64,000 nt of DNA. It comes from an uncultured Bermanella sp. (GTDB lineage: Bacteria > Pseudomonadota > Gammaproteobacteria > Pseudomonadales > Oceanobacteraceae). This document shows, in pieces, positions 759-13,449 of this stretch. A program made the position numbers and the translations under genes. The notes beneath the pieces were generated by a model that did not search any database, was not told the DNA's origin, and saw nothing but the letters and a program-made list of their open reading frames with translations. The stretch spans positions 1 to 64,000 of the forward strand of contig CAJXRF010000021.1 of NCBI GenBank assembly GCA_913058575.1. Reading direction: 5' to 3'. Position 1 is the first letter of the stretch, and each line of letters opens with the position of its first letter.

Positions 759-3710
759 ATGCTAAAAGATATAGAGGAAATGAATACGCACACACAAAGT
801 AATGACTTGGGTTATTTTGGTGCGAATTTAACTGAACAAAACCATGAATTAGATAAGGATATTAAAGGCTACTATCAATCTTATAGTCGCCCTGGTTTAA
901 GTCGATTACTTAAAACATTGGATATGCAACATATCTATACAAGAGGACAGGGGAATTATCTTTATTATCAAGATGAGGGAAAAGAGGTTGCTGTTCTAGA
1001 TGCTTTAGGTGGATTTGGAGCCTGTATTTTTGGTCATAACTATCCTCCACTGGTTAATCGCCTTCAGGATATGTTAATAAAGCAAACCCCATTTTTAGCT
1101 CAGGGCAGCACTCGCCCTAATACGGCGCTTCTTGGTAAGAAATTAAACGCAATGCTAGAAGATAGATTTCATAAATCTTTTGTGAGTATTACGCTGAATA
1201 CGGGGGCGGATGCCGTTGAAGCTTCTTTAAAGCACTCAGAACTAAGAAGAAAAAATAAACTTGAAAGTAAAATAGACCATTTTATTGGTCAGCTAAGATT
1301 AGCCCAAAAAGCACTGCGTAATGACGGCGCAGAATTTAATTCTGAATTTTTAAATTCAGTTTCAAAACACCTTGGCTCACATGTGACGAATTTCCATATG
1401 GCTTTTATACAGTTAGAAGCCAAAGCCAAAGGTCTACTGTCTGTTCGACCCACCTGTTTATCGGTAAATCGTGCCTATCATGGTAAAACCACTGGCGCTT
1501 TACAGCTGACACACGGTGAGGCTTACCGAACACCGTTTTCCTCATTAGGGCCCATTAGTGAATTTATTTGCCCAGATGAAAATGGATCTTTAAATAACGC
1601 CATTGAAAATACCTTGTTAAGCCTTCCAGTCATAAACCTAGTTGGCAATGAAATAGTTTTCAATACTGAAAATTTTACAAACATTAGTGCCTTGTTTGTA
1701 GAGCCATTGCAAGGAGAGGGTGGCATACATGCCTTGGATAAATCATTCTTAATTAAATGCCGTGAAGTAGCCAGTGATCATGATTTCTTATTGGTATTTG
1801 ATGAAATTCAATCGGGCATGGGACGTACCGGTACGTTTTTATATTGTGAACAGGCGGGTGTTTGCCCTGATGTTATTTTATTGTCAAAAAGTTTAGGGGG
1901 AGGGTTAAGCAAAATATCTGTTGCTGCATTTGAAAAAAGCATTTATGAGCCTGATTTTGATGAAGTGCATAGTTCAACCTTTGCCGAAGATGATTTAAGT
2001 GCAGGCATTGCCTTAGATGCGTTGACCCTGATATCTCAACCTAAATTGTTGGCGCGCGCTACAAACATGGGTGTGTACTTAAAAAACAAACTTAACGAAA
2101 TGTCAAAAGCTTTTCCTAGTGTGATTCATGAAGTGCGAGGGGAGGGGCTATTTTTAGGGTTAGTGTTTAAACCTCAGGTTCATAGCGAATCGTTTGTGAT
2201 TCGCTTTTTATCGGATACAAAAATGCTGGGTTATACCCTTGCTGGTTATTTATTGCATGAAATGAACATTCGTATCGGCACAACACTGTCCGATGGCTTG
2301 GTACTTCGAATTGAACCGTCATTATTTATTACAGAAGCAGAGTGTGACTATTTAGTACAAGGGCTAATGAGCGCCGCTGAGTGTATTCAAAAGGCCAATG
2401 CTTATGAATTAACAAAATATATGGTGGGCTTACAACGAGATAAGCAAGGGGATATTAAAGACTTTAGGGGCATTAACTGTGGGAAGTTACCAAAATTTGA
2501 GCCTAATTTGCCAACAGTAACGTTTGTGGCCACTCCTGCTTCGGCATTGCATGTGATGGACAGTGATGAAAGCTTGAAGCTGTATAAGCCAAAGCAAGTA
2601 GTGGATTTGTTGGCCAAAATAGTGGAAGTATTGGGGCCAGTAGAAACAGAAACCCGCACCATTGAATCGATCACGGGAGAAAAAATAAATTTCAGAATGC
2701 TGGTGTTGATGTATGACCCTATCTTTATTAGCAAGCGTCTATCCTCGGGTTATTTACAAGATATTCTCGAGAATATTATAGAGGTGCAAAAAGATTCAGA
2801 GCGCTTAAACCACAAGGTATTAGGCTTAGGTTCTTATACCTCCATTGTCTCTCATAACGGCTTAGATTTAGTGAGTGATGATATATCCCTTACCACCGGC
2901 AATGCATTAACGGTCGGGATGGGGGCTAGGGCGATTCTAAAATCGGCCCAAGAGCATCAGCTTGATTTATCTACATGCACGATGGCGGTACTGGGAGCTG
3001 GCGGTAATATTGGTTCTGTTTATTCTGAAGTATTGAGTGATCATGTTCCAAGATTAATTTTAATTGGGCGTGAAAATCGTCTGGCTCGTCTTCACCAAAC
3101 GGCTGTAACGATTTATCGACAAGCTCATGATGCGATCCAACATAAAAATGTGGCATCAGGCAGTGTGGCAGAATTTTTGGCTGCTACTAAAAGCTATCAA
3201 GACTGGGTTTTAATGCATGATGAATCTCAAAATAGCTACGAGGCCTTGATTCAGTCTTTACAAGATGAATTAGGGGATGACAGTCCTATTTTAGTGACAT
3301 CAGATAATGCCTGGTTAAAGCATTCGAACTTAATATTAACCTGTAGTAATGCCCCCACTCCGATTGTTTTTCCGAATATGTTAGGTAAGCAAAAAACCAT
3401 TATTTGTGATGTGTCGGTGCCACAGGATGTGGATGATAGCGTTGCTCATGACTGTGACAATGTAGAAGTTATCCGTGGTGGATTAGTGAGATTGCCAAGA
3501 AACCCTGAAATTGAATGGCTTGGAAATCAATGCTTGGGTAAAGGGGTGAGCTACGCCTGCATGGCTGAAACCATGTTACTGGGACTGGATGGGTGTAGAG
3601 AGCACGGTAGCTATGGGAAAATCAGCAAACAAGAAGTGATCAAAATATTGGGTGTTGCGGATATTCATGGTTTTGAATTGGCCAAAATAAAAGTTGAAAA
3701 AATATTTTAA
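759..3710 (+). CDS. Class III aminotransferase fused to acyl-ACP reductase-like domain
   Basis: A 983-residue fusion. Residues about 60-560 are a class III PLP aminotransferase: VFDEIQSGMGRTG carries the cofactor-binding Asp and LLSKSLGGG has the likely Schiff-base Lys377. An unusual helical insertion of roughly 65 residues precedes the conserved AYHGKT. Residues about 640-983 resemble cyanobacterial long-chain acyl-ACP reductase (AAR): GLGSYTSIVSHNGLDL, TTGNALTVG, the nucleotide-binding GAGGNIG at 746-752, and YACMAETMLL, whose Cys934 aligns with the AAR catalytic cysteine (Cys294 of the Synechococcus enzyme). Inference: acyl-ACP or acyl-CoA is reduced to an aldehyde that the aminotransferase domain converts to an amine. 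The start at 759 is chosen for GAGGG six bases upstream; an in-frame TTG at 705 has no such site. First gene of an operon with the next two. Confidence 0.85.
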   Translation: MLKDIEEMNTHTQSNDLGYFGANLTEQNHELDKDIKGYYQSYSRPGLSRLLKTLDMQHIYTRGQGNYLYYQDEGKEVAVLDALGGFGACIFGHNYPPLVNRLQDMLIKQTPFLAQGSTRPNTALLGKKLNAMLEDRFHKSFVSITLNTGADAVEASLKHSELRRKNKLESKIDHFIGQLRLAQKALRNDGAEFNSEFLNSVSKHLGSHVTNFHMAFIQLEAKAKGLLSVRPTCLSVNRAYHGKTTGALQLTHGEAYRTPFSSLGPISEFICPDENGSLNNAIENTLLSLPVINLVGNEIVFNTENFTNISALFVEPLQGEGGIHALDKSFLIKCREVASDHDFLLVFDEIQSGMGRTGTFLYCEQAGVCPDVILLSKSLGGGLSKISVAAFEKSIYEPDFDEVHSSTFAEDDLSAGIALDALTLISQPKLLARATNMGVYLKNKLNEMSKAFPSVIHEVRGEGLFLGLVFKPQVHSESFVIRFLSDTKMLGYTLAGYLLHEMNIRIGTTLSDGLVLRIEPSLFITEAECDYLVQGLMSAAECIQKANAYELTKYMVGLQRDKQGDIKDFRGINCGKLPKFEPNLPTVTFVATPASALHVMDSDESLKLYKPKQVVDLLAKIVEVLGPVETETRTIESITGEKINFRMLVLMYDPIFISKRLSSGYLQDILENIIEVQKDSERLNHKVLGLGSYTSIVSHNGLDLVSDDISLTTGNALTVGMGARAILKSAQEHQLDLSTCTMAVLGAGGNIGSVYSEVLSDHVPRLILIGRENRLARLHQTAVTIYRQAHDAIQHKNVASGSVAEFLAATKSYQDWVLMHDESQNSYEALIQSLQDELGDDSPILVTSDNAWLKHSNLILTCSNAPTPIVFPNMLGKQKTIICDVSVPQDVDDSVAHDCDNVEVIRGGLVRLPRNPEIEWLGNQCLGKGVSYACMAETMLLGLDGCREHGSYGKISKQEVIKILGVADIHGFELAKIKVEKIF

Positions 3711-3729
3711 AAATAAAAGGATAATGAAT

Positions 3730-4602
3730 ATGTCTAAAAATAATAGTTTGAAAAAGCCCGTATTGCCTAAAAATGAAAGTGGCGAAATGAGCGTTGACAA
3801 TATAGCCCCAAGGCGGTTTTTAATTGATTATGACGAGAGTGCTGATATTAAAAAACACTGGGTGAAAGACGATGGTTTTCTTACGCACTGGATGAATGCT
3901 TATACATTAACCATTCCAGGTGGTGAAGATTTTAATGTGCGTACCATTCGCAGCTACATTGATGATATTACAGATGAGTCATTACGCAATACAGCTCAAG
4001 GATTTGTAGCTCAAGAGTTATCTCATGGTAAGGCACATGGAGAATTTTTGAAGGTGTTAACTCGACAGGGTTACAATACAAAAATATTCTTGTCTATTTA
4101 TAATTTTCTATCGTTTAAGGTGTTAGAGCCACTATCTACTAAACTATCAAAGTTAGCGTTTGTGGTAGCGGTTGAGCGCATTAATGAGCTGATTGCCGAG
4201 GTTAATTTAGAACATAAGTTATTGGATGAAAGCCCAAGCGAAGCGGCCAATTTATATAAATGGCACTTTGCAGAAGAGATAGAGCATAAGTCTGTCGCTT
4301 ATGATATTTATCAAAATATATCTGGTAATCGATTCATGTTGGCTTACAGTACCCTGCTTTGTTATATCATTAATTTAACCTTTTTGATTTTTGGTACCAC
4401 TGCTTGCATGGTTCAAGATGGCAGTATTTTGAATCCTAAAAATTGGTTAAGAGGGTTTAGATATTTCTTTACCAAAGAGAAATTCTTTTGGAAGTTAAGT
4501 TGGGGTTGCTTGGAGCTTCAGAAAAAGTCATTCCATCCTTCCCAAAATCAAAATTTGCATTTGGCAGAAGCCATATTAAAAAGCCGTGATATCACGGCTT
4601 AA
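3730..4602 (+). CDS. COG3687-type predicted metal-dependent hydrolase (ferritin-like)
   Basis: About 290 residues, matching the family annotated as predicted metal-dependent hydrolase (COG3687, PF10118). It has the RRFLIDY start of the domain and helical metal-ligand signatures AQELSHGKAHGEF near residue 100 and WHFAEEIEHKSVAYD near 180, the ExxH arrangement of ferritin-like diiron proteins. A hydrophobic stretch near residues 210-235 suggests membrane association. No biochemical function is established for the family. It begins 19 bases after the aminotransferase-reductase gene, preceded by AAAAGG; ATG 3724 is an equally possible start. Next to an acyl-ACP-reductase-like enzyme, a diiron oxygenase or hydrolase acting on a fatty aldehyde, amine or amide is a reasonable guess but unproven. 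Confidence 0.8.
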   Translation: MSKNNSLKKPVLPKNESGEMSVDNIAPRRFLIDYDESADIKKHWVKDDGFLTHWMNAYTLTIPGGEDFNVRTIRSYIDDITDESLRNTAQGFVAQELSHGKAHGEFLKVLTRQGYNTKIFLSIYNFLSFKVLEPLSTKLSKLAFVVAVERINELIAEVNLEHKLLDESPSEAANLYKWHFAEEIEHKSVAYDIYQNISGNRFMLAYSTLLCYIINLTFLIFGTTACMVQDGSILNPKNWLRGFRYFFTKEKFFWKLSWGCLELQKKSFHPSQNQNLHLAEAILKSRDITA

Positions 4603-4611
4603 GGAAGATAT

Positions 4612-5625
4612 ATGTCTAGTGCAATCACGTACTCGCCAGCGTTTAAAGACATCGATAACTTTTTAAGACGTTATGGCACGGGCAGTATGGCATTCTCGTC
4701 ATTGCAACCCGAATTGAAATATTTTATAGATAAAGATTTAGGCTATATGGCCTTTATATATCTGAAGGATAAGGTATGGGCACCCAAAGGCTTTAATGTC
4801 ATTTTAGGTGACCCCATTTGTAAAGAAGAAAATTTCGACCCGTTACTTGATAAATATATGGAAATGGTGGGTAAAGAAAATACAGCATTCGTGCATTTGT
4901 CAGCAGCCATTGCGTCAAAACTCAGTGCCAGAGGGATAAGGGTGAATCAAATGGGAGTGGAACATATGATTGATTTACCAACATTTGATGTGAAGCTGCC
5001 GGGTGCTAATTTTAGCCACGTTCGTAGATGGAGGAATAAATCAAAAAAAGAAGGCATTGAGGTTCGAGAACAGCCATTTGAGACTATCGACCCTAGCCAG
5101 TTTCAGGCGGTTAATAGCAACTGGCTTAGCCGTAAAGGAGGCTCTGAATACATAGGGCTAACTAGGCCCTTGCGTGTAGAGGATAAAAAAGATGTTCGCT
5201 ATTTTTGGGCATTCAAAGATGAACGCTTAGTGGGCTTTGCTTTTTTTGATCCAATGTACCGTGATGGTAATGTTTATGGTTATATTCATAATATTGCAAG
5301 GTTAGATGATACGTGCCCTAACGGCACCAATGATTTAATTATATTAACGGCGTTGGAGAAACTCAAAGAAGAAGGTTACCAAGTGTTGTCTTTAGGCCTG
5401 TCTCCTTTGGCTGGCATTGAAGATGATAAGTTGGCTTGCCATAAAGGCATCTCTTCCATATTGAAATTTATGTTTAAGCATTGTGAATTCGTTTACCCTT
5501 TTCAGGGCAATTTTTTTCATAAAGAAAAATATCGGTCACGAAAAGAGCAAACCTATTTGGCTATCTTGCCTGATAGTAGCTTATATCGCTTAATGGGTGT
5601 TTTTAGAACGCTGAAGATACTTTAA
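4612..5625 (+). CDS. DUF2156 (LPG synthase C-terminal-like) GNAT-fold protein
   Basis: 337 residues matching the DUF2156/PF09924 domain, the catalytic half of lysyl-phosphatidylglycerol synthase (MprF), here without the membrane flippase part. Visible signatures are SHVRRWRNKSKKEGIEV near residue 140, FWAFKDERLVGFAFFDP near 200 and the GNAT-like HNIARLDDTCPNGTNDLI near 225. Family members transfer aminoacyl or acyl groups to amines or lipid head groups; the substrates here are unknown. The gene starts nine bases after the COG3687 gene with an AAGGA ribosome-binding site, so the three genes are almost certainly one transcript. Inference: it conjugates an amine or lipid made by the upstream enzymes. 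Confidence 0.82.
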   Translation: MSSAITYSPAFKDIDNFLRRYGTGSMAFSSLQPELKYFIDKDLGYMAFIYLKDKVWAPKGFNVILGDPICKEENFDPLLDKYMEMVGKENTAFVHLSAAIASKLSARGIRVNQMGVEHMIDLPTFDVKLPGANFSHVRRWRNKSKKEGIEVREQPFETIDPSQFQAVNSNWLSRKGGSEYIGLTRPLRVEDKKDVRYFWAFKDERLVGFAFFDPMYRDGNVYGYIHNIARLDDTCPNGTNDLIILTALEKLKEEGYQVLSLGLSPLAGIEDDKLACHKGISSILKFMFKHCEFVYPFQGNFFHKEKYRSRKEQTYLAILPDSSLYRLMGVFRTLKIL

Positions 5626-5637
5626 ATAAAGGTAAAA

Positions 5638-5669
5638 TAAGAAGCCGAATCAGCTGATTCGGTTTCTTA
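5638..5669. terminator. Long palindromic hairpin ending the lipid operon
   Basis: A 32-base near-perfect palindrome centred on CAGCTG, with a single G-T pair, begins 12 bases after the DUF2156 stop codon. The right arm is T-rich. It most likely terminates the operon. Confidence 0.65.
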
Positions 5670-5704
5670 GGTTTAAACTAAAAAGATGTCATCGTGAGTG
5701 ATTA

Positions 5705-5814
5705 CCACCAATCGGCCGCCACTTGTATAGGGCTTGGATCACCTTGCAGAGAAACCCAAGAAACCAATGCCTGATTGGTTGATTTAAATTGAATGGCATT
5801 TGATAATTTAGGTG
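5705..5814 (-). pseudogene. Remnant of a DUF1223 gene 3' end
   Basis: This segment aligns with 10221-10330, the last 37 or so codons of the intact DUF1223 gene, at roughly 85 percent identity by hand alignment, including one small indel. An extra base at 5704 changes the end from Trp-Trp-Asn-Gly-stop to Trp-Trp-stop. No upstream part of the gene is present and homology fades after about 5815. It is a decayed partial duplicate, or the residue of a former tandem or flanking copy. Confidence 0.8.
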
Positions 5815-5976
5815 TTCATTATTTCAAAGGAATTTACACTTCATATTTGTAAGGTGTAAATGAAGAAAGTAAAATTGCCTGTGTCTCATTACAGTAAAAT
5901 GGTCCACTGAAATCAAGTAAAGCTTGAAGGATAACCACACGCACATATTTAGTTTCCTAAAATGTACGTCAATTGA

Positions 5977-6006
5977 GTATTAAAGAGCCCTAAGGCTCTT
6001 TAATAC
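5977..6006 (-). terminator. Terminator of the flavin oxidase gene
   Basis: A perfect 13-bp stem (GTATTAAAGAGCC and its complement) with a 4-nt loop lies directly after the stop codon of the minus-strand flavoprotein gene. Confidence 0.65.
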
Positions 6007-6008
6007 AG

Positions 6009-7619
6009 TTACATGCAAATATTGGCATCTTCAAAAAACTTGCCCGATTGGCAACTTGTCCCTTCGGTACAGTGTTCATCACTTTGACAGTAACATTCAC
6101 CGGTTAGGTTGCATTCTGGCGTTAAGTAATCACTAAGCGGTACATCCCCAGTGACACGTTTCCAAAATTGATTGGTAAAAACATTGTAAGGGTCCATGTC
6201 GGTCTTGGTGGCTAAAAACTCATTCCATTTAGGGTAACGGCTAGGAATATCTTCAAAAATAGCCACTGAGTTTTTTCCCCAATGTGGACGTGCACCATAT
6301 TTACGTAATGACATTTGTTCTATTTCCAAATTAACAAAATAATTTTTAGGCACCGCTTCACCGGCTTTACGTAAAGTGTATTCAATGCCTAAATAAGCGG
6401 TGTCTCGGCCAGCGCTCATGCCTAAATAGCTTGGTGAGGCTTTGCCAAAACGAAAATAAATGCCGTTAAGGGGGAAGCACGTTTTTTCATGACTGGCTAA
6501 AATTTGACGAACATCCTGAATCCAATTAGGCAATTCCTCTACTGGAATGGCCACTTCCTGTAAGGCTATGGGAAGTTTATCCCACACACATTTATCAGGT
6601 TCCCTGCAGCCAAAATATTGCATCTGATCCGATTGACCTACCGGACTATATTGAATAAAACCGGTATCTAAATCACGAAAGTAGGAGGAATCTCTGGCAC
6701 CATAGCGAACTTTGGCGGCTAAACATTGCAGGCCTGAATTGGATGTCTCATGAAGGGCATTAAATAATAGCCCAAAGAAATACTCTTGAATGCTCGACAC
6801 ATCGGCCTGAGCATTATAAGCATTGCCTTTCGTCTCCAGTGGGACCTCATCATAAGTGGTGGTGGTGTAACGGCCTATGCCAGGAAACCAAGCGACATTG
6901 GTGGAGTAATGGTTTCGAGCCAGATCAAGAATGACATTTTCCAAGTCAGAATCATCTCGGTAACCTTTAACCTGGGCCTCCACTTTGAAGGCATCTTCTA
7001 GCTGTATGGTGACTTCTACGACCACCCCCAGTACTCCTAGATTAACCCTAGCTGCATTAAGCGCTTCACCGGTTAATACTCGAACTTCCCCCAGCCCATC
7101 TACAATTTTCATCTCGGTGATATAATCTGCCAACATATTGCTGGGTTTCTGTAAGGTCGAACCATGGGTGCCACTGCCAAGCATGCCACCAATGGAAAAG
7201 GTACCTAACTCGGTGACCATATTGATCGCCAGTTTTTGTGGTCGTAGAAATTCATTTAAATCATTAAAACGCATGCCCGCTTCAACCGTAACGGTTTTTT
7301 GTGCAGCATTAAATACCAGTAAATCGTTCATATTTTCTAAGGTTATTTGAATTTGTCCATTGTCGGTACAGGCGGCATCAATTTGACTGGAAAATTTTCG
7401 ATTGCCGGTCATGATGGTTTGGTTGTTGGTCAAGGCATCCTGTACTATTTGTTGTACTTCAACCACTGTATTAGGACTGTGAATGGTATCTGGATAGCAT
7501 TCATAAGTGCCTTGATAATTCTTAATAGTGCTATCGGATTCAAGTGAGTTTATTTTTAAGGCGCCACCTAATATTAGAGCAGCGGTAGTTAAAGCCAGTA
7601 ATGGCTTCTTTAGTGTCAT
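6009..7619 (-). CDS. Secreted FAD-linked oxidase, D-arabinono-1,4-lactone oxidase type
   Basis: 536 residues. An N-terminal hydrophobic signal is followed by a PCMH-type FAD-binding domain (residues about 50-220; VTVEAGMRFNDL and GGMLGSGTHGS, the usual flavin-binding region). The C-terminal half resembles D-arabinono-1,4-lactone/L-gulonolactone oxidases, with RPHWGKN and DPYNVFTNQFWKR. Such enzymes oxidise sugar lactones with O2. The last 45 residues are cysteine-rich (eight Cys), which suggests a disulfide-stabilised periplasmic or extracellular tail not typical of the family core. ATG 7619 has AGGAGA six bases upstream, so it is preferred to the TTG at 7625. It follows the carotenoid-oxygenase-like gene by 36 bases, probably in one operon. 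Confidence 0.85.
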   Translation of the reverse strand: MTLKKPLLALTTAALILGGALKINSLESDSTIKNYQGTYECYPDTIHSPNTVVEVQQIVQDALTNNQTIMTGNRKFSSQIDAACTDNGQIQITLENMNDLLVFNAAQKTVTVEAGMRFNDLNEFLRPQKLAINMVTELGTFSIGGMLGSGTHGSTLQKPSNMLADYITEMKIVDGLGEVRVLTGEALNAARVNLGVLGVVVEVTIQLEDAFKVEAQVKGYRDDSDLENVILDLARNHYSTNVAWFPGIGRYTTTTYDEVPLETKGNAYNAQADVSSIQEYFFGLLFNALHETSNSGLQCLAAKVRYGARDSSYFRDLDTGFIQYSPVGQSDQMQYFGCREPDKCVWDKLPIALQEVAIPVEELPNWIQDVRQILASHEKTCFPLNGIYFRFGKASPSYLGMSAGRDTAYLGIEYTLRKAGEAVPKNYFVNLEIEQMSLRKYGARPHWGKNSVAIFEDIPSRYPKWNEFLATKTDMDPYNVFTNQFWKRVTGDVPLSDYLTPECNLTGECYCQSDEHCTEGTSCQSGKFFEDANICM

Positions 7620-7655
7620 GTCCAATCTCCTATGGGGGTGAAAAATAAATTTGTT

Positions 7656-9500
7656 TTAGCCAAAAATAGGCAATATTTTTTCATTAAGAATGGTTTGTAC
7701 ATTTGAGCTATGGCATGACATTTTTTCACGAAAAACATCTGCCAGATTAGACTTGTACGCACTAAGGGGCCTAGGAGCGACTGTCTCTACCCATAAAGCG
7801 TGATTGGTGGTGGCAAAATCTAGGTTGCTGCTGGCCAATATGCAAAGCGGGCCTTGTGCGAGATTTTTAGCATCAAAAATCCAAAACTCCTTACCTTTTG
7901 AAGCGTCACCAGAAGGATGTTTTCTAACTACCGCTGTAAAAATATAACCATGATCTTGTTCATTCGAATCTGGGCGGTTCATAAATTGTGGTGTGCGCAT
8001 AACACAGTCTTCTGGGAACTGATATTGGTCTGCGATACTCATCTCTTGGCAATTCATGTGTATTAACGCAGAGGGTTTAGCGTTATTGGGTAAGTTATCG
8101 TTATTGTACAATCGATTAGGGTAATCTTCGTAAGCGTCGGCTACTCGTTTTACTAAATGTTCTGGTCGATACCCAATAGCTGCCCAGTATAAGTGATCGA
8201 AACTTTCAGGGAATTGAAAGTGGCCTCGATAGGCAGGGTCGTTTAAATCCCACATGGTATGTTCATCACGTAATAAACGAAAATCTGATTTTATTTCTAC
8301 CGCTGAATTCTGCATCACTTGAATACGTGCTCGAACTAAACCACCTACGTCTACAGGTGCAACTGGATAGCCTGATATATTTTCATTAACACGATCACCA
8401 AAATGAAGTCTTTCCCAGTTAAACTGTTGTTCTGATTTATCCATGGCCCCCAAATATTGACCATAAAGCGTGATCTCATCTCCCCAGTCATCGTAATTAC
8501 ACATGATATCGGAAGTATCAAAATCTAATTCTAAATAGTCAGCCACCACATTTTTTTGGCCGGATAATAAATCCGCCTTACGAATAACCCACACGGGAGT
8601 GGTGTGGGTTTGAGGTGTCACCGATTTAATGCCTAAAATACGGCCAGACTCTACAAATGCTGCAGTTTCAAAAATAATAATATGATTACGCGTCACGCCC
8701 ATGGAGTGAGAAGTGGCTTTTATATAGGCATTTTTTCCTTCTCGATCGACAACATTCCATGACTCTAATGCCCCTTGCATGTCCCATTTTATGGCCCTTA
8801 TAAATCCATTGTTTAAACCAGTGGTACCGATATTTCCGCCATAATTAATGGTAAAACATAACCCTTGTTCAAGATCAAAAAAAGGATGGCCCGTGGTACG
8901 TACTTGTGGGAATAGCCATTTTTTAGGGGTAAAGAAATTTAAAAAAGGCGGTAAGCTAGATTCCCATTCATTTGGGTTACCAATGGAGGTCACCAGTTCC
9001 AGTGTGCTGGCATCAAATTCAAAAGGCATTCCTCCCTCATAACTTAACGCAAAGCGATTGTCTCCCATGTAATTAGGTGCCGTATTGCAATAATTCATAA
9101 ACCCCATGGTAGAACTGTAATAAACGGTACCTCCTAGTAAGTGAAACTTATCTAATAACCCTGTGCTGTGTTGCTGCATGATAGCCGATGGGGTGTTAAT
9201 CATCTTTCGAGTGAAATGAACAGCTTGGTCTGAAAAATCTAGGCGTGTTAATGCACCTCTGCCATTGGGGGTTAAATGGTTTTTTTCTAAAGGTATGCCT
9301 TCGGCCATTAAAATGTGGCCGTGTATATCATTAGGTAAAGATCCCTTGATGACTTCTAATGTGCCATTGCTTTCATAAAGGCTGCCACTCATTATGGAAA
9401 GTGGGAACTGCGTTTCGGATGCAAAACTTAACGAACTAAATGTTAGACTGGGTAGCGCCGATAGCGCTCCGGTTGTTTTTAAAAAGTCCCTTCTTTTCAT
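7656..9500 (-). CDS. Tat-exported carotenoid oxygenase family protein
   Basis: 614 residues with a Tat signal (KRRDFLK, then a hydrophobic stretch and cleavage near FASE). The mature part matches the carotenoid cleavage dioxygenase/RPE65 family: DIHGHILMAEGIPLE near the start of the fold, TGHPFFDLE, SHSMGVTRNHIIIFE and a C-terminal NHALWVE, which supply candidate iron-ligand histidines of the seven-bladed propeller. These enzymes cleave carotenoids, stilbenes or lignin-derived alkenes with O2 at a non-heme iron. Periplasmic location is inferred from the Tat motif and suggests an external substrate. GAGGT precedes the ATG. It is first in a likely two-gene operon with the flavin oxidase. Confidence 0.85.
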   Translation of the reverse strand: MKRRDFLKTTGALSALPSLTFSSLSFASETQFPLSIMSGSLYESNGTLEVIKGSLPNDIHGHILMAEGIPLEKNHLTPNGRGALTRLDFSDQAVHFTRKMINTPSAIMQQHSTGLLDKFHLLGGTVYYSSTMGFMNYCNTAPNYMGDNRFALSYEGGMPFEFDASTLELVTSIGNPNEWESSLPPFLNFFTPKKWLFPQVRTTGHPFFDLEQGLCFTINYGGNIGTTGLNNGFIRAIKWDMQGALESWNVVDREGKNAYIKATSHSMGVTRNHIIIFETAAFVESGRILGIKSVTPQTHTTPVWVIRKADLLSGQKNVVADYLELDFDTSDIMCNYDDWGDEITLYGQYLGAMDKSEQQFNWERLHFGDRVNENISGYPVAPVDVGGLVRARIQVMQNSAVEIKSDFRLLRDEHTMWDLNDPAYRGHFQFPESFDHLYWAAIGYRPEHLVKRVADAYEDYPNRLYNNDNLPNNAKPSALIHMNCQEMSIADQYQFPEDCVMRTPQFMNRPDSNEQDHGYIFTAVVRKHPSGDASKGKEFWIFDAKNLAQGPLCILASSNLDFATTNHALWVETVAPRPLSAYKSNLADVFREKMSCHSSNVQTILNEKILPIFG

Positions 9501-10211
9501 GTCTAACCTCTATACGATATTTATTGTTAGGTGATGAGAATTTAAATCACAACTTGGATGTTGCTTTTGTCAGTATTCTTAAAGACAAGCTTATGGATCA
9601 TGCATACCCTCAAAGTATTCGCCATGTGAAAAGTGGAAATTACATGGTTTTTTTTTAAAATACATAATTAAGCATGAGCAATGTAAACCATAATTATTAG
9701 GTCAATTTTACCTAAAAGAGGGGGCTTAAATTTTGGATGTGTTTTACCCGATGGATTGAAAAGTGCCAGTTGGCTTTTATGGTCTATGGGATAAAATGAA
9801 ACAAGGTGATTTAGAATTTTAATTTATAAAAGAGGCGCCAATAAAGTTGGCATGTATCTTTAGGATAGGTGGTCGGGTTGAGGCCTGTTGATCCAAGCTA
9901 AGGGATTATTCTAATAGGAATGATTTCAATATAATTAAGTACAATGAGTGATGTGCTTGAGGCTTATCTTCAATTTTAACCCAAGTGTTTTTAGAAAATG
10001 ACTTTCATTTAGCAAGTATTCAACCATTATAAAAATGGGCGAATGTATTAACAGTGAGCGAGACAGTGTCGTGCTTCAAGAGCTATTGCCTTGTTTTTCT
10101 TGTGAAACTTTAAACTATGGCCTGACACCAAGGTCAGGCATTAAAAAATAAAAGTTAGTGCAACTAGCTTTGGTAATGCTTTTAATTAGGATGTTACCTA
10201 AGAATGTACTT
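9501..10211. other. 711-bp intergenic region
   Basis: I find no supported gene. A short frame at 9440-9658 overlaps the start of the carotenoid oxygenase gene on the other strand and has no recognisable content. The region must hold the promoter of the minus-strand carotenoid-oxygenase operon, and it contains a hairpin near its right end (10120-10139). Confidence 0.6.
10120..10139 (-). terminator. Hairpin downstream of DUF1223 gene
   Basis: GCCTGAC pairs with GTCAGGC around a 6-nt loop, 72 bases beyond the DUF1223 stop codon. There is no clear T run on the minus strand after it, so terminator function is tentative. Confidence 0.4.
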
Positions 10212-11000
10212 TCAGCCATTCCACCAATCGGCCGCCACTTGTATGGGGCTAGGATTATTTTGTTGAGAAACCCAAAAAACCAATGCTTGATTGGCTGATG
10301 TAAATTGACTGGCATCGGGTAGTGTTAGGTGATTGGTATAGCTGCCTTTTTGTAAGGTTAGTTGGGCGTTGTTATAAGCCATGACCACAAAATCATGGGG
10401 TAATTGCTTCCCTGAATTTTCCCCTCGTTGCACATTTGTTATTTGATCAAACCCTAAAATCGCCACGTGTATTGTCAAAGGTGCTGATACTTTAATGACT
10501 GGGTTAAAGCTAATTTGTGCCTGCATTTCTTCTACTTTAGCCGATAATACACCCACCGCTTTAAATGGATAAGCAGGCACCGGCTGGCCTCTAAACCAGC
10601 CATTCCATCCTTGCCCAGATACTATAAAACCAGGTGTTGCCACAGTATGGCTTAGTTTAAGGGCTTTATAATCGCGCTGTCTTTTCGTAAAAATTGAAGA
10701 GGCATAAGGGTCTTTCCAGCCCAAATAATCCCAGTAATCCACATGAAAATTCATAGGCACCAGTTGCTTCCAAAGTCGCTTATCTTGTTTGAATTTAGAC
10801 ATCCATCGTTCGGCTGGTGGACAGCTACTACAGCCTTGAGAGGTGTACACTTCTAGCATGCTGACTTGCACTAATGAACTGGAGATAGTTTGGCTCCAGC
10901 TGATATTACTTAAAAATAAAAACAGAAATAAGGCGGGCCTAATGACGCGCATTCCATTAATGGTGGAAAGGCTGAAGCCTGTTTGGTTTAGGATTTTCAT
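10212..11000 (-). CDS. DUF1223 family secreted thioredoxin-like protein
   Basis: 262 residues with an N-terminal hydrophobic export segment (ALFLFLFLSNISWSQ). After it comes the DUF1223 (PF06764) start LEVYTSQGCSSCPPAE with a CxxC pair, then the typical FHVDYWDYLGWKDPYAS motif. The family has a thioredoxin-like fold and is usually predicted to be periplasmic, but its redox role is not established. The ATG at 11000 has GGGA upstream; the internal Met at about residue 17 would also leave a workable signal peptide. A decayed copy of this gene's 3' end lies about 4.5 kb away at 5705-5814. Confidence 0.85.
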   Translation of the reverse strand: MKILNQTGFSLSTINGMRVIRPALFLFLFLSNISWSQTISSSLVQVSMLEVYTSQGCSSCPPAERWMSKFKQDKRLWKQLVPMNFHVDYWDYLGWKDPYASSIFTKRQRDYKALKLSHTVATPGFIVSGQGWNGWFRGQPVPAYPFKAVGVLSAKVEEMQAQISFNPVIKVSAPLTIHVAILGFDQITNVQRGENSGKQLPHDFVVMAYNNAQLTLQKGSYTNHLTLPDASQFTSANQALVFWVSQQNNPSPIQVAADWWNG

Positions 11001-11051
11001 GATGATTCCCTACAAAATATGGTTCTATTGTAGAGTCTGGCGTGTGTAAAA

Positions 11052-11070
11052 GTGTCACAAAAGCGTCACA
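11052..11070. promoter_or_regulatory. Direct repeat GTCACA spaced 11 bp
   Basis: GTCACA occurs at 11054 and 11065, one helical turn apart, in the divergent region between the DUF1223 and DUF1254 genes. This spacing is typical of winged-helix response regulator sites. The binding protein is unknown. Confidence 0.35.
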
Positions 11071-11296
11071 TTTCAATCACGAACTGTTATCGCTTTACAA
11101 GGCTGTTATTCGTTCTGTGTTAATTGGCGTTGATGTATTTCCCCCATGGACACTCATTAGCAAAAGCCGTGTTTAATCGGCTTATTAAGCTTGCTAGAAC
11201 GGGGTTTCGTGACCCGAATTCCCATATTACTCATTTATGAATCCCTATAAGCTGCTCTAATTAATCTCAATATAGCGTCTACTAAGAGCGAGCAAT

Positions 11297-12673
11297 ATGT
11301 CTGTTATCAGAAAATTATGGCCGTGGGTCTTCATTGTTTTATTGATTATTTTAATGTGCAGTGTGTACGCAGTGCGAACCATCAAGCAGGGGGCCGAAGC
11401 CTATATTTTTGGTTACCCATTAGTGCTGATGGAGCTAACTCGTCAAGCTATGGAAGCAGACGCTACGAAAGGCGCTAACCACCTGTATCACCTCAGGAGC
11501 TTTCCTGATCACACCTTTCGAAATGTGGTTCGTCCTAATAATGATACGGTTTACAGCGTAAATTGGTTTGATTTAAAAAAGGAACCCATGATCATTAGCG
11601 TGCCGGATTCAGACCGTTATTATGTGTTGCCCTTTATGGATGCCTGGACCAATGTGTTTTCCTCAATTGGCTCACGCACCACGGGAAGTAAAGCCGGCCA
11701 CTACGCATTGGCGGGGCCAGATTGGCGTGGGAAATTACCCAAGGAAGTGAACTTGATTGAATCGCCTACCAATATGGTGTGGATGGTGGGTAGAATTCGC
11801 GCCAACAGTCAGGCAGACATGGTCAAGGTGGCACACATGCAAGATCACATGGCCATTACCCCTTTAAGTCAATGGGCTAATGGTCAGCCATTGCCGGCTA
11901 AGGTGGTTGATGGCTCGTCAAAGGGAAGCGACAAACGCCACCCTAAAGCTTTGATAGACGGGTTGTCAGCGGCTGAGTTTTTTAATTTGTTAAGTGAATT
12001 AATGGCAACTCAACCAGCCGCCAAGTCTGACACAGACGCCTTGCACAATCTTTCTCAATTAGGTGTGGTGCCGGGTAAGTCATTTAATTTAGCGTCAATG
12101 GGGATCATTGATCGATGGTTAATTAAAAAATCGGTCAGTATTGCTAATGCCAAGTTACATGAAGCTACGGACAATCAAAGCACCAGTCCTATGGAAAACG
12201 GTTGGGTGATATGGAGAGGCATCATTGGAGAATACGGCACTAACTATCAAGTGAGGGCCGGTGTAGCCATGAGGGCTTTGGCTGCTTTAGCCCCTAAAGA
12301 AGCGGCTTACCCTAGTGCATCAGTGGATGTTAATGGCGAGGTATTAACAGGTCAGAATCAATACAAAATTCAGTTTAAAAAAGGGCAAACTCCACCGGCT
12401 CATGCGTTCTGGTCCATCACCATGTATAACTCAGAAGGCTTTTTGATTGATAACCCCATTAAGCGTTATGTAATTGGCGATCGTAATGAGCTGGCATTTA
12501 ATCATGATGGATCGTTAGATATTTATATTCAGCATACGCCGCCACCAAGTGGTGAGAGTAACTGGTTACCCAGCCCTAATGGTCAGTTTTCAATATTAAT
12601 GCGAATTTATAATACCAAGCAAAGCTTTTTAGATGGCAGTTGGCAGGTGCCCGCTATTGAAAGAATGAATTGA
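11297..12673 (+). CDS. DUF1254/DUF1214 domain-containing protein
   Basis: 458 residues. An N-terminal membrane-spanning or signal segment (residues 8-28) precedes a DUF1254 domain (about 35-170, starting EAYIFGYPLVLMELTR, with VVRPNNDTVYSVNWFDL and FMDAWTNVFSSIGSRT). A DUF1214 domain (about 340-445) follows, with QYKIQFKKGQTPPAHAFWS and MYNSEGFLIDNP. The two domains commonly occur together in envelope proteins of unknown function. It is divergent from the DUF1223 gene and appears monocistronic. Confidence 0.85.
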   Translation: MSVIRKLWPWVFIVLLIILMCSVYAVRTIKQGAEAYIFGYPLVLMELTRQAMEADATKGANHLYHLRSFPDHTFRNVVRPNNDTVYSVNWFDLKKEPMIISVPDSDRYYVLPFMDAWTNVFSSIGSRTTGSKAGHYALAGPDWRGKLPKEVNLIESPTNMVWMVGRIRANSQADMVKVAHMQDHMAITPLSQWANGQPLPAKVVDGSSKGSDKRHPKALIDGLSAAEFFNLLSELMATQPAAKSDTDALHNLSQLGVVPGKSFNLASMGIIDRWLIKKSVSIANAKLHEATDNQSTSPMENGWVIWRGIIGEYGTNYQVRAGVAMRALAALAPKEAAYPSASVDVNGEVLTGQNQYKIQFKKGQTPPAHAFWSITMYNSEGFLIDNPIKRYVIGDRNELAFNHDGSLDIYIQHTPPPSGESNWLPSPNGQFSILMRIYNTKQSFLDGSWQVPAIERMN

Positions 12674-12711
12674 ATACGGGCAATTTTTTATGTTGATTTT
12701 ATGCAACACTT

Positions 12712-13449
12712 TTACTGTTGGACCTGGCTTAGAATTTCATCATAGCGGCCCGATTTTTTAAGTTTTCTTAGGCCTTTATCAAATCGTTCCATGAGGTGAT
12801 GGGCATTTGGAATTTTTTTAGAAAAAACCATGTAATAATTTTTTTCTTCCAAAATTTTGGGGTGGTGCGTGAAAAGCTTAGCTTCGTTGGGTTGAAATAA
12901 CATATTAATTTGGTGGTAGCCCACATAATATGAGGCAGGAAAAATATCTAGCCGGCCTTTGAGCAATTTATGATAATTAAAATCTTCTTTGCTTACGTAA
13001 TCAATTGTTAACCCGTTTTTTTCTAGAATTTGCCCTGTGGCGTAGCCTAGGGTACCGCCGATTCTTAAGCCTTTTAAATGATCAAATGTTTCCCATTGCA
13101 AAGGGCGAGACTTCAAATGAAAAAGAACCGTTTGTTCGGTTAAGATGGGCTCTTTAGTGTAGTAAACCTCCTTTTTACGTTTTTCAGTGATCACCCACGG
13201 AAAGGTGGCCTGAAATTCGCCTTTTTCAACGTATTGGTAGCTTCTGATCCAAGGGAAGTAATGATAATCCACCTGAATATCTTCAAGTAGAAAGGCTGCT
13301 CTTACGATGTCTTCATTAATATGAGCGTTATCGGCTCGGCTGGATGTAAACGGTTCCCAGTCCCCAATAGCAATTTTAACCACTTCTTCGGAATGGACTG
13401 TCAGGCTCGCCACTGATAAACAAATTGCCATTAATATGAAATTGATCAA
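12712..13449 (-). CDS. Orphan periplasmic solute-binding protein (family 3)
   Basis: 245 residues with a signal peptide (cut near VHSEE) and the family 3 extracellular solute-binding fold (SBP_bac_3): IAIGDWEPFTS at the start, GGTLGYATGQILEKNG and a closing FDKGLRKLKKSGRYDEIL. No ABC permease or ATPase lies nearby, so it is an orphan, like the similar proteins at 26947 and 39322. Such stand-alone proteins are common in marine gammaproteobacteria and may be sensors or scavengers. The start is TTG, chosen because AAGGAA lies at the right distance and the next ATG would remove most of the signal peptide. Confidence 0.8.
   Translation of the reverse strand: MINFILMAICLSVASLTVHSEEVVKIAIGDWEPFTSSRADNAHINEDIVRAAFLLEDIQVDYHYFPWIRSYQYVEKGEFQATFPWVITEKRKKEVYYTKEPILTEQTVLFHLKSRPLQWETFDHLKGLRIGGTLGYATGQILEKNGLTIDYVSKEDFNYHKLLKGRLDIFPASYYVGYHQINMLFQPNEAKLFTHHPKILEEKNYYMVFSKKIPNAHHLMERFDKGLRKLKKSGRYDEILSQVQQ

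Follow-up and report, generated by a model that had tools for sequence, protein, structure and literature searches.

A three-gene operon of an uncultured Bermanella sp. with a transaminase-reductase fusion and a possible route to a modified long-chain amine

The stretch of DNA analysed here (the window, bases 1-64000 of contig CAJXRF010000021.1, or C21, in the 5.72 Mb draft genome of an uncultured Bermanella sp.) holds three closely spaced genes: a fusion of a class III aminotransferase with a thioester reductase of the acyl-ACP reductase (AAR; ACP, acyl carrier protein) type, a PF10118/COG3687 protein and a standalone DUF2156 protein. Tentatively, and with chances a little short of even, they are read as an operon for the four-step synthesis of a modified long-chain amine. 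The AAR domain would load an acyl group from acyl-ACP (or acyl-coenzyme A, acyl-CoA) on Cys934 and, with NAD(P)H, turn it into a fatty aldehyde; the fused pyridoxal phosphate (PLP) aminotransferase, with Lys377, would turn this aldehyde into a primary long-chain amine before it leaks away, as in the known fusion TamH; the PF10118 protein, a putative dimetal-carboxylate enzyme, would oxidise either the chain or the nitrogen of the amine with O2; and the DUF2156 protein would attach an amino-acyl group, donated by aminoacyl-tRNA, to the amine (another acyl group is less likely), so that the product would be an amino-acyl alkylamide lipid with one chain. The apparent novelty lies in the combination, two partner genes and their product beside a fusion of known type. 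Literature searches among open-licence PMC papers led to TamH, PigE and papers on other subjects, and among the titles and abstracts listed none describes such a fusion combined with PF10118 or DUF2156. That the product represents an undescribed lipid class, a TamH-type amine oxidised by the PF10118 protein and tRNA-dependently aminoacylated by a standalone DUF2156 protein, with an amide on an alkylamine and not an ester on a glycerolipid, is a doubtful proposition. An earlier note on this DNA, made from the sequence alone, had proposed the aldehyde and amine steps and a final conjugation; its scheme was incomplete for the operon, as it left the ferritin-like second protein without a role.

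The fusion occupies 759..3710 on the + strand (983 aa; ORF 759-3707, stop 3708-3710) with an ATG start at 759, and a longer frame opens with TTG at 705. Its aminotransferase domain, residues 56-537 (924..2369, +), matches Aminotran_3 (PF00202) at E 3e-59, with the PLP-binding Lys377 encoded at 1887-1889. The AAR-type reductase domain, residues 611-983 (2589..3707, +), carries the glycine motif GAGGNIG (GxxGxxG) at residues 746-752 (2994-3014) and Cys934 (3558-3560), which all 36 aligned rows share; direct reading of the sequence found Lys377, the glycine motif and Cys934 where the earlier note had placed them. Pfam recognised in the C-terminal half a weak Shikimate_DH match alone (26.8 bits against 24.3). 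In a phmmer search of PDB, the fusion matched cyanobacterial AAR (6jzq, 2.5e-11) and PigE (4ppm, 2.8e-11), and a 36-row profile of the C-terminal half matched PigE at 4.6e-47 and cyanobacterial AAR at 8.2e-38. The AlphaFold model of residues 611-983 reached a pLDDT of 89.9, and its seven best Foldseek rows were AAR chains (6jzy, E 6e-19, TM 0.69/0.75). Because profile and predicted fold agree, the C-terminal half is taken to be AAR-like, which answers the main doubt of the earlier note, where a comparison with the AAR structure had been named beforehand as the check.

The fusion is known in kind and so not undescribed, as had been supposed. PtTamH from the tambjamine cluster of Pseudoalteromonas tunicata joins an N-terminal class III transaminase to an AAR-like reductase at the C-terminus, which has GxxGxxG and Cys887; together with TamA it makes C12 amine from C12 acid, using L-Glu and NADH but not NADPH, while with C12-CoA no amine was seen (PMC9594044, in excerpt). 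Thus, the proposed course from acyl thioester through aldehyde to amine has been demonstrated for the same architecture, and reduction of acyl-ACP and amination of the aldehyde by the window fusion are well supported by homology to an enzyme whose activity has been demonstrated. Both share domain order and motifs, and the products of TamH are long-chain aldehyde and amine; the comparison was made by description, not by sequence. PtTamH differs in its partner, the adenylation-ACP protein TamA, and in serving a bipyrrole pathway, whereas in the window no ligase or ACP adjoins the fusion and PF10118 and DUF2156 genes stand there instead. No bipyrrole-pathway families were recognised among the eight proteins scanned from 759 to 13449, on a contig that begins at window base 1. 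PigE of prodigiosin synthesis (PDB 4ppm) likewise unites both domain types in one chain, which has been likened to GluTR-GSAM channelling (PMC8341465, in excerpt), but with swapped domains, the reductase being first, and with H2MAP, a pyrrole precursor, as product. The NCBIfam PigE model matched the window fusion at E 1.8e-88 with 297.8 bits, under its cut-off of 850.

Cyanobacterial AAR (6jzq, 6jzy) and its partner ADO resemble the window in reductase fold, glycine motif, Cys and a ferritin-like dimetal partner, but there the reductase is not fused to an aminotransferase and the partner is not a PF10118 protein. AAR being the closest fold, with an AAR-ADO complex as the best PDB match of the reductase model and entries with ADO activity at Foldseek ranks 28 and 29 for the PF10118 model, one might regard reductase and PF10118 protein as a hydrocarbon-forming pair with the aminotransferase as a side route. 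This is highly improbable, as the fused aminotransferase would compete for the aldehyde. An ADO pairing was rejected, since among Pfam families the product of gene 2 matches PF10118 only and not the ADO family.

Gene 2 (3724..4602, +; start 3724, stop 4600-4602) encodes 292 aa that match PF10118 (Metal_hydrol) with 190.8 bits against a cut-off of 33.2 (E 4.3e-56). Two alignments were compared, one of 15 rows (the window, one paralogue of its own genome and 13 proteins from the order sample) and one of 24 rows (the window and 23 IMG/VR relatives). E68, E98, H101, H105, E151, E184, E185, E187 and H188 are invariant in both, and the spacing E68-X29-E98-X2-H101 and E151-X33-E185-X2-H188 gives an EX29EXXH/EX33EXXH layout, two EXXH and two further Glu in a four-helix bundle, which we take to be the pattern of dimetal-carboxylate proteins. 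The model is a helical bundle (pLDDT 83.7), in which the proposed metal ligands E68, E98, H101, E151, E185 and H188 lie in helices 51-79, 85-114, 140-163 and 173-199. VIA-align ranked mouse R2 first (Z 15.3, rmsd 3.9, 229 aligned residues) and still gave Z 13.9 at rank 50, and all 50 matches listed are R2, R2lox, AurF or CmlI; in Foldseek CmlI and NrdF were the best rows, with a best E of 0.013. Helical bundles may score high through arrangement alone, and so the assignment leans on motif and fold together. Given the invariant motif and the R2/AurF-like bundle of the model, the name "hydrolase" is probably a misnomer, and motif and fold suggest for the gene 2 product an R2/AurF-like dimetal-carboxylate enzyme that uses O2; the conserved ligands and the predicted fold likewise point to a dimetal oxidation as the third step. 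The bundle is followed by a hydrophobic helix of about 203-232, in which the 19 residues from 212 have a mean hydropathy of 1.9; this fits a lipid substrate. In the open-licence PMC literature searched, a single paper mentions PF10118 or COG3687. For a family that bears the label of a hydrolase, the operon thus points to dimetal oxidation with O2 as the probable reaction and to a likely class of substrates; if true, it would be the first function for PF10118.

Which reaction is catalysed is not chosen by the fold, because the Z values of R2, R2lox and CmlI lie within 1 of one another. Foldseek puts CmlI, an arylamine N-oxygenase, at the top and lists AurF too, so that the PF10118 protein might instead be an amine N-oxygenase whose N-oxidised product (hydroxylamine, oxime, nitro or N-acyl-N-hydroxy lipid) is acylated by the DUF2156 protein in the manner of fragin. 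In the ham cluster for fragin and valdiazen, HamC, HamD, HamG and HamF supply N-oxygenation, thioester reduction, amination and acylation, and an AurF-like N-oxygenase, an aldehyde released by a nonribosomal peptide synthetase (NRPS), an aminotransferase and an acylating enzyme serve one product (PMC11659414, in excerpt). Because the fragin pathway unites these activities, N-oxidation is a serious rival. By description, the window shares with ham the passage from thioester to aldehyde, the aminotransferase, the acylation and the diiron N-oxygenase logic, but ham has an NRPS acting on valine, a diazeniumdiolate product and other enzymes for these steps, and its N-oxidation precedes amination and takes place on a different nitrogen. 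Two desaturase genes at the locus of a second genome that carries the set, G061, equally suggest work on the chain. We consider the N-oxygenase unlikely; it overlaps with the preferred reading, in which chain or nitrogen may be oxidised, and the two are not exclusive.

Other PF10118 copies offered no single theme, as the neighbours scanned for them (10 proteins, eight loci) were FMO-like in two cases, response regulators in three and others in five, and the family is often multi-copy per genome. In viral contigs the PF10118 protein alone as query found no relative; the alignment as query found 30 loci, which served as alignment depth only.

Gene 3 (4612..5625, +) encodes a standalone DUF2156/LPG-synthase-C transferase of tandem-GNAT type with 337 aa, which matches PF09924 (DUF2156/LPG synthase) over residues 19-317 with 145.1 bits against 27.5 (E 3.1e-42). 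The best PDB match of its alignment profile is an MprF-type synthase domain (6e-72), and an aspartate-tRNA ligase entry is weaker (5.6e-14). It shares the PF09924 tandem-GNAT synthase domain with MprF, LysX and ErdS, but differs from them in being standalone, without flippase or tRNA-synthetase domain: it has no transmembrane flippase domain, and the full-length MprF model gave 91.7 bits, under its cut-off of 600, with a match to 571-832 of 841 only. Of the D-x-x-R motif of MprF, whose Asp and Arg are presumably important, Arg230 is kept and the Asp is replaced by Asn227, as the motif Asp is in other aligned standalone members except that of locus L073. GNAT folds commonly take acyl-CoA or acyl-ACP. 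Both points speak for acyl-ACP or acyl-CoA as donor in place of aminoacyl-tRNA, with an N-alkyl fatty amide as product. The names of the 13 PDB profile matches run the other way, being MprF/LpiA-type synthases, tRNA-dependent phosphatidylglycerol (PG) synthases and aspartate-tRNA ligase, with others called hypothetical or acid-regulated protein, and bacterial DUF2156 proteins are described as tRNA-dependent lipid aminoacyltransferases with glycerolipid substrates, while fungal ErdS acts on ergosterol (PMC9437257, in excerpt). An acyl donor is therefore judged improbable. Amino-acyl transfer to the amine, preferred for the fourth step, is suggested by family precedent; the conjugation proposed in the earlier note likewise has the family as its basis, and Asn227 does not favour it. 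If it is true, tRNA-dependent lipid modification would extend from glycerolipids and sterols to amines. The isolated catalytic domain of MprF, without access to membrane lipid, is reported to make no aminoacyl-PG in Escherichia coli (PMC8131360, in excerpt), which implies that a standalone DUF2156 protein needs another route to its lipid and fits an acceptor other than membrane PG.

No tRNA genes were found in the 64-kb window. On plasmids, 99 records match DUF2156, all below 60% identity and, among the 20 matches listed, all below 30%. Standalone DUF2156 paralogues of the order sample adjoin a Methyltransf_25 gene at five of seven neighbour-scanned loci (L124, on contig C23 of the own genome, L125, L127, L137 and L139; not L126 and L138), and at L127 a fatty-acyl-reductase-type NAD_binding_4 protein lies near the DUF2156 gene.

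The distribution of the set was followed in overlapping genome samples of the order, class and phylum. Close fusions were found in three of 194 order genomes at E up to 1e-60 (the window, G061 and G119), in five of 369 class genomes (the window, G225, G280, G388 and G397) and, at E up to 1e-80, in two of 398 phylum genomes (the window and G061). At E up to 1e-5, 64 of the 194 order genomes have a PF10118 match and 19 a DUF2156 match. In this sample the best match outside the own genome is G061 for both partners, with 5.1e-80 and 45% identity for PF10118 (next 1.2e-39) and 8.9e-112 and 50% for DUF2156 (next 2.0e-49). In G061, which belongs to another family, locus L122 carries on one strand the fusion, an FA_desaturase, the PF10118 gene, the DUF2156 gene and a further FA_desaturase, so that the relative order of the three is the same as in the window. 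That both best matches come from one run of genes argues, on sequence comparison, that genes 2 and 3 and the fusion move together. The coordinates of the three genes given by the earlier note were confirmed, with gaps of 13 and 9 bases, and the three-gene set does recur in this second family; adjacency is not the rule, however, as none of the 80 best fusion loci of a contig scan, many of them incomplete, has a PF10118 relative. Of the two findings that the note had named as fatal, neither appeared: the reductase is AAR-like by profile and fold, and the three genes do stand in one run elsewhere.

Alternatively, the proteins of genes 2 and 3 could have lipids outside this pathway as substrates, membrane PG or free fatty acid for instance, and their genes would have no more than a promoter in common with a fatty-amine synthase, without a joint product. 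At E up to 1e-5, matches to DUF2156 are absent from five of the six genomes with close fusions (G119, G225, G280, G388 and G397), three of the five being less than 90% complete, and elsewhere the fusion works with NRPS, ketosynthase (KS), ligase, MMPL and PEP-utilizer neighbours. The narrow gaps, the same relative order in G061 and the fact that the best matches of both genes adjoin the G061 fusion oppose such independence, to which we assign a low probability.

Several observations count against a joint pathway to a modified amine as preferred here. The three-gene set was found in two genomes only, the window and G061, and its conservation therefore rests on one comparison. The closest relative of the fusion in the order sample is that of G119 (40%), a genome without DUF2156 match, and not that of G061 (38%). 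In the fusion tree, which has long branches, the window lies within a starred group of seven rows (96/94) with G119, G061, G225, G280 and fusions from Desulfobacterales and Photobacterium; it is joined there with G119 (89/92, not starred), and a tree that holds window and G061 together was not rejected (p-AU 0.25). Genes for an ACP, a ligase, an electron-transfer partner or an exporter are absent from the operon. For the PF10118 model, Foldseek alone gave no match below E 0.001, and PDB searched by sequence gave nothing convincing (best E 0.79 and 1.9). To these come the missing motif Asp of gene 3 and the isolated MprF domain that is reported to make no aminoacyl-PG.

Since at E up to 1e-40 no other of the 44 family genomes holds a fusion (the window genome has two), G061 is the sole genome with DUF2156 at E up to 1e-50 among 249 sampled of its genus, and the operon has a low G+C content (39.0% against 41.9%, sd 0.9, in 108 overlapping equal stretches of the remaining window, none as low), the set looks accessory and was probably acquired horizontally. 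A search of the family of G119 gave nothing in five genomes, which says little without a positive control. With the fusion as query, six plasmid records were found, one of them from Photobacterium sp. DA100.

Judged by the sequence survey, transaminase-AAR fusions as such are widespread. The scan of genome contigs for the fusion pattern matched at least 595 stretches, at least 582 of which encode a relative, and the best 80, which were kept, fall in Bacillota, Pseudomonas, Rhodococcus and others; a distant DUF2156 protein occurs at one of the 80 (L073, opposite strand). In G280 the fusion forms the end of an NRPS. The fusion of G397 has two AMP-ligases, LolA and MMPL as neighbours, G388 the same set by similarity, and G119 an MMPL; in G225 two PPDK_N/PEP-utilizer proteins accompany it. 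Ketosynthases, SDR and MMPL stand beside the fusion at L009, from a metagenome-assembled genome (MAG) of Desulfobacterales, and L140 (Photobacterium DA100) has KS, LolA and MMPL by similarity and ACP-like and SDR-like genes by eye. With such neighbours, the module seems to free acyl chains from their carriers as amines in many different contexts, and the survey suggests that it has a general use in amine release after NRPS, ketosynthase and ligase systems, well outside the pathways to prodiginines and tambjamines.

Some of these loci deserve mention of their own. At L134:8032-17070 (-) an NRPS ending in a transaminase-AAR module contains a PilZ-type domain inside the chain. At L133:2759-10917 (-) the fusion is followed by two PPDK_N/PEP-utilizer proteins, a pair that suggests a phosphorylation step. 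L009:5235-16309 and L140:3982-18089 have in common a cluster of KS, transaminase-AAR, SDR (by eye in L140) and MMPL, which possibly makes a secreted long-chain amine.

A second transaminase-AAR fusion of the own genome, 28% identical, lies on contig C35 (L123:9513-12188, -). Its operon is larger and also codes for two FA_desaturases, an amino-acid permease, an R2/AurF-like protein (Pfam R2 and AurF matches under the curated cut-offs) and a Fer2/FAD reductase; genes for an FMO-like protein and an AMP-ligase lie close by. L082:7862-18383, from an Alteromonadaceae MAG, encodes a ligase-ACP-transaminase-AAR chain followed by R2-like, APH-like kinase and FemAB-like proteins. With the C35 R2-like protein as query, phmmer found relatives at three of 88 loci (L073, L082 and L123, the last being the query's own), in each case on the strand of the fusion, downstream and at most three genes away. 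If the PF10118 proteins of the window and G061 are counted too, five of the 89 fusion loci looked at have a dimetal-like protein. The likeness of these repeated dimetal and transferase partners is analogy at most, because sequence links were not found: PF10118 has none to the C35 R2-like protein and DUF2156 none to the L082 FemAB-like protein (hhalign probability about 0.3% or less for each). Pfam recognises neither the L082 nor the L073 R2-like protein at E 0.001. The recurrence of R2-like proteins beside other fusions speaks for the preferred reading of the operon; the lack of a link between PF10118 and the C35 protein and the lack of Pfam matches speak against it.

Contig C21 begins at window base 1, and 758 bases separate the contig end from the operon start. 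By eye, each of the three starts is preceded by a purine-rich, Shine-Dalgarno-like sequence. Upstream of 705 there is no ORF of at least 90 aa, and a palindromic hairpin, a probable terminator that the terminator scan lists on the - strand, follows gene 3 at 5645..5662; the operon therefore looks complete with three genes. In these scans, which report consensus matches only, terminator-like sites lie above chance (11 against 4.4), while promoter-like sites are at chance level (20 against 21.3). Further downstream, window 6009-9500 (-) encodes an RPE65 carotenoid-oxygenase-like protein with a weak TAT signal match, which adjoins an FAD lactone oxidase with a weak Cys-rich repeat match at its end.

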